A stretch of 64,000 nt of DNA from Candidatus Aenigmatarchaeota archaeon. Its GTDB lineage: Archaea > Aenigmatarchaeota > Aenigmatarchaeia > CG10238-14 > SCSR01. Numbering within the stretch: the first letter of the stretch is position 1; every line of letters begins with the position of its first letter. The stretch covers positions 9,865-73,864 of the forward strand of contig JACPAE010000004.1 in assembly GCA_016181005.1 (NCBI GenBank), written 5' to 3'. The translations under genes and the position numbers were made by a program. Of the stretch, positions 52,361 to 54,261 are shown piece after piece. The notes below the pieces were generated by a model. That model had not been told where the DNA came from. It was given only the letters and a program-made list of their open reading frames with translations, and did not search any database.

Positions 52361-53112
52361 TCATTTCGAAGGCTTTCCGCCATCGCCAAGCTTCATGAAT
52401 CTGCCGTCCTTCTTTATAACAGCAATGTCGGTCACAATGTCCCTTTTCTCCTTGTCCGATTTCTCAGTCTTGTCGATTATTTCCAAAGCCAAATCAGTGG
52501 CCTCCTTTTCGCTCATGCCGTCCTTCCATTTTTGGTTCAGCAACTTGTTGGCCAATGCCGCGCCTCTTCCTATGGCCTGCGCCCTCCACTCGAACAGCGT
52601 GCCCGAAGGATCGGTCTCAATCAAGTGAACCCCTGACCTGTCCACGCCTCCAAGCAGCATCGACACACCAAAAGGCCTTAAACCGCCATATTGCGTAATC
52701 AACTGCATCCTGTTTCCTATCACCTTGCCGATGTTCCAGACGTCGACAGGCTCGCTATAAGTAAGCTTGTGCATCTGCGCCCTCACCCTTATCATCTGGA
52801 CCAGAACCCTGGCGTCAGCTATAAAGCCCGAGGCAACCGCGCCCATATGGTCGTCTACTTGGAATATCTTTTCTGTCGCGTCCGATACGACCAGCTTTCC
52901 CGTAGGCTTGACAGTGGCAAAAACAATGCCATCCTTGAATGTTATTCCTAGTGCTGTGCTGCCTCTCTTGACGGCCTCTTTTGCGTACTCTAACCAGGCG
53001 AAAAAGGAAACCCTTAATTCGCTACCTGGAACAAGCGGCCATCAGGCGAGAATCTACACCAAATAGCTATTACACTATCTGATTACATAGCCATCGTCCG
53101 ATCATAACCCAT
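52361..53112 (-). CDS. psmA: Proteasome alpha subunit, interrupted by two bulge-helix-bulge introns
   Basis: Coding exons: 53085-53112 (28 nt), 53024-53051 (28 nt) and 52361-52991 (631 nt), 687 nt in total. Spliced product is 228 residues: MGYDRTMAMFSPDG at the start, RLFQV joined to [16 protein letters not shown], then EKIFQVDDHMGAVASGF. The YDR gate motif, [13 protein letters not shown] and helix H0 all match archaeal PsmA, the ring entry that docks PAN. Unspliced, translation from ATG 53112 ends after nine codons at TAA, and the second exon would run into TAA in intron 2. Only the region after 52846 would be called by standard tools, losing about 67 residues. Downstream genes are SBDS and the exosome. 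Confidence 0.93.
52992..53023 (-). other. mRNA intron 2 of psmA (32 nt, bulge-helix-bulge)
   Basis: Read on the minus strand: CCAG pairs with CTGG as the 4-bp central helix. 5' bulge is GTA, 3' bulge is TTA. The inner stem GCGAA/TTCGC is extended by AAGG/CCTT around the loop GTTT. Cuts after GT and after TT join CAG GT with A GAG TAC, restoring F-Q-V-E-Y-A. The outer helix is weak (about two pairs). Confidence 0.92.
53052..53084 (-). other. mRNA intron 1 of psmA (33 nt, bulge-helix-bulge)
   Basis: Read on the minus strand: exon end CTAT pairs with GTAG (T-G wobble at one end) as a 4-bp central helix. 5' bulge is GTA, 3' bulge is ATT. The inner stem ATCAGATAG/CTATTTGGT (9 bp, two G-U) closes the loop TGTAATAG. 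Cuts after GT and after AT join ATG T with TC TCG, giving M-F-S-P. Confidence 0.9.
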
Positions 53113-53224
53113 TTGAATAACAGCCAGCAATTAACTGAACCATTAATATTCCGGCATGATCTCAGGCATCGCATATCACCAATGCACTAAACTTTCTCAT
53201 TTTTGTTATCACCTTAATTTATTA

Positions 53225-54211
53225 TTAGAATTTAGTATTAGGGTTTATATTGTTTTTCAATTTCCAATTAACTGTTTCGATAGGTCCTCTTTTGCTTATC
53301 ACACTCTTTTCTACTAGACCTTCTTCGACCAGTTTATGTACATTCTTCCAGATTACATCACGATTTCGATTAACTATTCTACATAAATCTTTAGTTCTTA
53401 ATACACTACCCATTTTTAATGCGTCTAATATTCTCATTTTTGACTCACCCTTTCCATAAGTTTTATAGCTGTTAATGGTTTGCACCAATTTCCCTTTCTT
53501 TTTATTGTCAGTAAAGCCTACGGTTTCTATAAATTTCATAAGATTGTACCGTCCGTATATATTAAACCCTATTGATGTTGAATCATATGGTTGTTTTCTT
53601 TCATAAAGCCCATTTGGAGATATACCTAAGGAAAGTAGAATTCCTCTTATATCTTCCATAAATTTTTTGTGAGCGTTTAATAGAAAGTTCTTTTTGTTCA
53701 TACTAAATCCTATTACATAATTTCCTTTGCTATTGATGACAGTTCCTTCATCATCGAAAAGTGCCCTGATAAAAGCTGATTTAATGTTAAGAGAACCATT
53801 TTTAATCCATTCTGGTATTGTTAGAGCTTGTTTTACTTTTTCACCTTTCGGAAAACCGCATAAAACTAGGAATCTAGCTACTGTTTTAGGCGGATATATT
53901 TCGTAGAACTCTCGTTCTTTATTAAAATTCCAATTTGGATAAATTCCAAACAAGCCTTTAACTAGCATTCTAAATTCGTCAGCCAAATCCTTACTTTTGT
54001 TGGTATAATATACATTTTCTTCCCCTTGTTTAATACAGCCATCACCTAGAACATGTCCTAAAAGTGATGCTATTTTCTCATTAGCCTTAAATGGCATTTC
54101 GACATTTATGATATACTGACCTCTATGTAACTTTAGGAAGACGATAGTGTCTTCTACTTTAATTACTTTGAAATGTTGTTTCAGTTTCTCCAATGTAATT
54201 AATTCTGACAT
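53225..54211 (-). CDS. LAGLIDADG homing endonuclease with C-terminal winged helix
   Basis: Free-standing two-motif LAGLIDADG protein of 328 residues: P1 ASLLGHVLGDGCI near residue 55 and P2 FIRALFDDEGTV near 155. The acidic metal ligands at the end of each helix (D in GDG, D-E in DDEG) are present. A C-terminal winged-helix-like region (ILDALKMGSVLRTKDLCRIV, NRDVIWKNVHKLVEEGLVEK) could bind DNA or regulate its own gene. Lower G+C than its neighbours suggests transfer. ATG 54211 is preferred over GTG 54217. It ends 112 nt upstream of the psmA start. Confidence 0.88.
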   Translation of the reverse strand: MSELITLEKLKQHFKVIKVEDTIVFLKLHRGQYIINVEMPFKANEKIASLLGHVLGDGCIKQGEENVYYTNKSKDLADEFRMLVKGLFGIYPNWNFNKEREFYEIYPPKTVARFLVLCGFPKGEKVKQALTIPEWIKNGSLNIKSAFIRALFDDEGTVINSKGNYVIGFSMNKKNFLLNAHKKFMEDIRGILLSLGISPNGLYERKQPYDSTSIGFNIYGRYNLMKFIETVGFTDNKKKGKLVQTINSYKTYGKGESKMRILDALKMGSVLRTKDLCRIVNRNRDVIWKNVHKLVEEGLVEKSVISKRGPIETVNWKLKNNINPNTKF

Positions 54212-54261
54212 CGACACGACTATCCAATGTCTATATATTATAGTAGAACTAGTATATAAAG

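Follow-up and report, generated by a model that had tools for sequence, protein, structure and literature searches.

The psmA gene of this member of the Aenigmatarchaeota (DPANN), which encodes the alpha subunit of the proteasome, is interrupted near its start by three inserts of 32 or 33 nucleotides. Comparison with related sequences indicates with high confidence that these inserts are bulge-helix-bulge (BHB) introns that are spliced out of the messenger. A gene for a free-standing LAGLIDADG homing endonuclease lies directly upstream, and we consider it fairly probable that the introns belong to a homing cassette: the endonuclease would target psmA, and the micro-introns would disrupt its target site. 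The window, that is, the whole stretch of 64,000 nucleotides analysed, comes from a genome of 740 kb in five contigs (92% complete), designated G000. G001, G002, G003, and G004 are genomes of the same genus, and other G numbers denote relatives within the class.

Geometry of the psmA inserts

On the minus strand of the window, the LAGLIDADG gene is followed by psmA, the SBDS gene, and then exosome genes (Table 1). The preliminary description had reported two inserts in psmA, introns 2 and 3 of Table 1, and both are present exactly as claimed, with the same BHB folds and with in-frame stops that close the unspliced frame within each of them. Excising the two gives the 687-nt frame with the conserved N-terminus that had been described. 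The number of introns and the start of the gene had to be revised. A third BHB insert, intron 1, splits the stretch that reads ...MPEYMGYDRT in relatives, and the codon at 53112 that had been taken as the start specifies an internal Met, since the proteins of relatives begin further upstream; the true start codon is at 53169. Spliced psmA therefore amounts to 24 + 28 + 28 + 631 = 711 nt, or 236 codons and a stop. When the gene was translated with introns 2 and 3 removed, a Pfam search gave PF00227 (E 5.7e-50) and PF10584 (E 3.2e-12), the latter being the N-terminal alpha signature, which is present in the spliced protein.

Table 1. Features of the psmA region in the window, and two splicing genes elsewhere in the genome.
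Feature	Position	Strand	Remarks
Free-standing LAGLIDADG homing endonuclease gene	53225..54217	-	PF14528, E 2.4e-16; directly upstream of psmA
Possible 12-codon leader frame	53162..53200	-	MRKFSALVICDA*; from sequence comparison; stop overlaps psmA start
psmA exon 1	53146..53169	-	ATG CCT GAG ATC ATG CCG GAA TAT = MPEIMPEY; relatives have uninterrupted MP(D/E)IMPEYMGYDRT
Micro-intron 1, 33 nt	53113..53145	-	central helix GAAU/AUUC; bulges AUU, AAA; inner stem of 10 pairs
psmA exon 2	53085..53112	-	MGYDRTMAM + 1 nt; from comparison with relatives
Micro-intron 2, 33 nt	53052..53084	-	central helix CUAU/GUAG; bulges GUA, AUU; 10-bp inner stem
psmA exon 3	53024..53051	-	FSPDGRLFQ + 2 nt of Val
Micro-intron 3, 32 nt	52992..53023	-	central helix CCAG/CUGG; bulges GUA, UUA; 5 + 4 bp inner stem
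psmA exon 4	52361..52991	-	remainder of proteasome alpha subunit
EndA gene	G000:C5:69040-69318		catalytic Tyr and His kept; Lys position is Ala
rtcB (splicing ligase gene)	G000:C2:74457-75833 (L260)		two BHB-like inserts; outside the window

In all three introns a 4-bp helix joins the exon to the 3' end of the insert, accompanied by two 3-nt bulges on opposite strands and an inner stem. A cut after the second base of each bulge restores the psmA reading frame at every insert, and only this register gives both the frame and full pairing; where several junctions yield an identical spliced sequence, just one satisfies the BHB geometry. The nine psmA introns that we found in five genomes measure 31-35 nt, and 36/36 of their central-helix pairs form in the canonical register. 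The 168 other registers formed a mean of 0.39 of the pairs, and the best of them, a one-base neighbour of the canonical register, reached 0.86. When the introns were shuffled (by single letters, not dinucleotides), the product of the rates at which the geometry arose was about 1e-26, or about 1e-18 with shifts of as much as 3 nt permitted. The exon-exon outer helix (hBHBh') is weak, with 0-3 pairs immediately beyond the bulges. RNAfold recovered the BHB for introns 2 and 3. With varied flanks, the minimum-energy structure of introns 1 and 2 was sometimes not the BHB (z-scores of -0.31 and -2.44), and the argument therefore depends on register and comparison, not on folding energy.

The possible leader frame of Table 1 has a counterpart in G013 (L015), where MRKLFALVIGNA* stands at the same place. 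Judging from the sequence, the overlap of its stop with the psmA start is arranged as if the two were translationally coupled. An additional insert considered in the psmA leader (AATGAGAAAG...) was discarded; it is without a BHB, and reads as the conserved 12-codon leader frame in G013.

EndA cuts BHB RNA and RtcB joins the ends, and genes for both are present in G000. The EndA proteins of the clade (L034-L039) have Ala or Thr at the third catalytic position, which is Lys in M. jannaschii EndA, and carry a Lys-rich insertion between the Tyr and the His. EndA, of the type that acts on tRNA, would excise the three micro-introns from the psmA pre-mRNA, and RtcB would seal the exons to give a normal proteasome alpha subunit.

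Distribution of the introns and their pairing with an endonuclease gene

The 5' end of psmA was read in 130 loci of the class. BHB micro-introns were found in 5 of them: three each in G000 and G013, and one each in G003, G010, and G012. The intron-free versions anticipated among close relatives do exist, as G001, G002, and G004 encode the same protein without inserts. At the intron-1 site of the window, or within 2 nt of it, introns are also present in G010, G012 (both at the PEY/M site), and G013. The single intron of G003 lies between T and I, where it has a homologue in G013, so that this intron occurs in two genera. Its central helix has undergone a compensatory change, with exon AGAAC facing intron GUUC in one genome and AGGAC facing GUCC in the other, and the resulting change in the Arg codon is silent. 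A pair of its inner stem also differs between G003 and G013 (U-A vs C-G). In the psmA tree the intron trait is scattered and needs five changes, the same number as for shuffled labels; at least two of the changes are forced by well-supported branches. A second intact psmA was sought as a possible functional substitute, and none was found in the G000 genome at its 92% completeness. The earlier proposal that the inserts are archaeal introns of the splicing-endonuclease type thus agrees with the intron-free orthologues in the same genus, the exact BHB register, the recurrence in five independent genomes, the compensatory exon-intron change, the presence of EndA and RtcB genes, and the single copy of psmA.

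The LAGLIDADG gene, which the preliminary description had not connected with the inserts, is the strongest clue to the reason for the introns. Such a gene lies directly upstream of psmA at the same five intron-bearing loci and at no others among the 130. When the count was restricted to loci that have 1.2 kb or more of DNA upstream, and one masked locus was excluded, the endonuclease gene accompanied 5/5 intron-bearing loci vs 0/112 others in the class, uncorrected for kinship. Within the family the count was 5/5 vs 0/10, again with at least 1.2 kb upstream and uncorrected for kinship. The psmA-type endonuclease occurs only in these five of 151 genomes and the next matches are far weaker, the search model having been built from the five, so that their own scores are high by construction. 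The five enzymes share 30-41% identity with that of the window and form a group of their own, and the acidic residues of both LAGLIDADG motifs (GDG, FDDE) are invariant across five relatives. Relatives of the window's enzyme in the PDB include the endonuclease 1dq3. Its closest match is the enzyme of G013, from another genus, and not that of G003, from the same genus; G000 and G013, which share the closest endonucleases, are the two genomes with three psmA introns each. The endonuclease gene of G010 has a frameshift inside.

We also considered whether the endonuclease gene might be part of one large intron in the 5' untranslated region, and rejected this idea: no BHB was recognised by eye at the ends of the gene, and in G003 and G013 the stretch that separates it from psmA contains a likely promoter. 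A plasmid search gave no match.

On the reading that we propose, the inserts are in psmA because of the neighbouring endonuclease; the co-occurrence in five genomes points to introns that shield psmA from the enzyme and are themselves spliced out. The LAGLIDADG enzyme would recognise the very conserved start of psmA. By interrupting that site, the micro-introns would render the host allele immune while leaving the protein unharmed. Upon an encounter of the cassette with an allele that has no introns, cutting of that allele and its repair would copy the endonuclease gene and the introns jointly. Splicing of the psmA messenger, DNA cleavage at psmA, immunity, and co-conversion are thus the steps that we infer. 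The pairing, the scattered trait, and the compensatory change all count in favour of this reading. Counting against it, the intron sites are dispersed along about 56 nt of exon sequence, more than one usual LAGLIDADG site covers, so that one recognition site may not cover them all and several enzymes or successive invasions may be needed. The weak outer helices, and the absence of the usual catalytic Lys from EndA of the clade, also count against the proposal.

Other interrupted genes and other endonuclease neighbours

A second case that counts for homing comes from G063 (L321, C5:5200-10200), where a related LAGLIDADG gene overlaps the start of minD. A 30-nt insert splits the P-loop codons of this minD (GKGGVG/KTT), and of the three junctions that would restore the protein only one has BHB geometry, which is perfect there (UCGG/CCGA). 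Similar endonuclease genes lie above minD of G138, which is intact, and above tgtA, topA, alaS, and stt3, in which no micro-introns are visible; these neighbours count against the proposal. Free-standing LAGLIDADG genes recur just upstream of conserved genes on the same strand (L320, L322, L328, L330, L331, L159, L151, L143, L152), and the downstream genes comprise tgtA, minD, topA, alaS, stt3, and genes for an NTPase, a radical SAM protein, and a tRNA methyltransferase.

Inspection of rtcB revealed inserts of the same kind. In G000 the first (DGH/SGYG, 32 nt) has one G.A mismatch and the second (GFDI/N, 31 nt) is canonical. G004 (L278) has one insert, homologous to the first of G000 with two compensatory pairs. 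Two inserts each were found in G011 (L279; 16 and 13 nt, with very small loops) and in G019 (L299; 26 and 18 nt, canonical). From its sequence, the rtcB gene seems to require its own product for its messenger. In the DNA examined, no endonuclease gene was found near rtcB of G000, G004, or G011, which also counts against homing.

De novo scans for BHB motifs, in the window and in 464 kb of G000, returned mostly noise at gene junctions, so comparison of homologues was used instead. When 464 kb of G000 was compared with 560 kb of G003, 268 genes of G003 had a good match, and among these the micro-introns of G000 were confined to psmA and rtcB, so they are rare and concentrated. Two further inserts, in rps11 (23 nt; L292, G000:C5:172331-172830) and nth (26 nt; L282, G000:C2:58381-59120), were rejected as introns. 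Both are exact tandem duplications that shift the frame, and they are probably assembly errors. In psmB (L002, G000:C4:121-616) about 41 residues are missing and there is a frameshift, unlike in all relatives, which reflects either a real loss or an assembly error. Probable inteins were noted in rtcB of G002 (L277) and G019 (L299) and in ftsZ of G000 (G000:C5:176427-178637), and they sit in the same kinds of conserved motifs as the micro-introns.

Competing explanations and relation to known systems

Some possibility, which we regard as doubtful, attaches to the view that the inserts are spliced BHB micro-introns that owe nothing to the endonuclease, being remnants of older, larger mobile introns or products of reverse splicing, while the endonuclease is a separate guest at a hotspot. 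The rtcB micro-introns and the preponderance of endonuclease genes whose neighbours are without introns both speak for it, as does the frequent shrinkage of rRNA introns to short hairpins (PMC4496867). The psmA pairing together with the minD case is, however, hard to explain as an accident, even with shared ancestry, since the trait is scattered.

We think it most improbable that the inserts stay in the messenger and are skipped by ribosomes. Phage T4 gene 60 is a known example of such bypass, and the same has been suggested for mitochondrial bypass elements; these elements, too, are typically short hairpins that carry stop codons and interrupt coding genes. Bypass needs no pairing between exon and insert, yet all of the pairs form in exact BHB register and one of them has changed on both sides. 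Moreover, the repeat at the psmA insert junctions varies from 0 to 3 nt, so take-off and landing do not share a fixed triplet. Equally improbable are errors of sequencing or assembly, or a psmA pseudogene in decay. The G000 assembly does contain likely errors (the rps11 and nth duplications and the psmB deletion), but none of the psmA inserts duplicates sequence next to it, their geometry is identical and exact throughout, and inserts of this type recur in four further genomes, including an assembly that was deposited separately (L042, JASEGQ010000001.1). The exons, moreover, are conserved, and this psmA is the sole copy found in the genome.

Spliced micro-introns tied to a homing endonuclease, the reading that we prefer, can be compared with several known systems. 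Introns of the BHB type have been described from tRNA, rRNA, and one mRNA (PMC7714728). The established BHB-spliced mRNA is that of cbf5, and where archaeal mRNA introns come from has been described as unclear (PMC2738675). The cbf5 introns of Crenarchaeota are similar: they have a BHB, measure 16-44 nt, interrupt a protein-coding gene, are cleaved by EndA, and are gained and lost in a lineage-specific manner (PMC2738675). They differ in that a single gene carries one intron, mostly with a relaxed BHB, and an adjacent endonuclease gene is not reported, whereas here three canonical introns lie in psmA of a DPANN archaeon and others in rtcB and in minD of relatives.

The short hairpin introns in 16S rRNA of Thermoproteales are likewise BHB introns, of less than 50 nt, clustered at very conserved sites (PMC4496867). 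In Pyrobaculum oguniense, the endonuclease of a 16S rRNA intron cuts the site of an adjacent short hairpin intron when that site is empty, and both introns are co-converted (PMC4496867). Those introns reside in rRNA genes with an intron-encoded endonuclease, in contrast to the protein gene and free-standing endonuclease gene described here. In phages, collaborative (trans) homing describes a free-standing endonuclease and an intron without a reading frame of its own that share one conserved site (PMC3984707), a coincidence of sites that would apply to psmA as well if the proposed reading is right. The phage introns are self-splicing group I introns in phage genes, while the BHB introns are protein-dependent, lie in a cellular gene, and occur several together. 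By this analogy the psmA cassette would represent in archaea what collaborative homing is in phages. The probable inteins of the same genomes resemble the micro-introns as mobile guests with LAGLIDADG endonucleases in highly conserved motifs, and differ in being excised from protein, not RNA.

The splicing mechanism is thus known; the gene, the host, the multiplicity, and the pairing with an endonuclease were not found in the literature searched. The preliminary description had suggested that two BHB introns in a proteasome gene would be new, and no earlier report of introns in proteasome genes, Aenigmatarchaeota, or DPANN was found in open-licence papers.

On balance, although only just, we favour the broader view that archaea harbour mobile cassettes in which a free-standing LAGLIDADG gene is combined with tiny EndA-spliced BHB introns that shield psmA and minD at their most conserved codons. 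This would amount to collaborative homing in cellular genes, and would offer a route for the spread of mRNA introns in archaea, reaching rtcB. Up to three BHB introns in one essential gene, recurring in five genomes and joined by a second and a third affected gene, would mean that gene prediction in DPANN archaea overlooks core genes or predicts them in shortened form. Protection against a homing endonuclease would then be a testable reason for the gain of introns by archaeal messengers, and one answer to the question of their origin would become directly testable.
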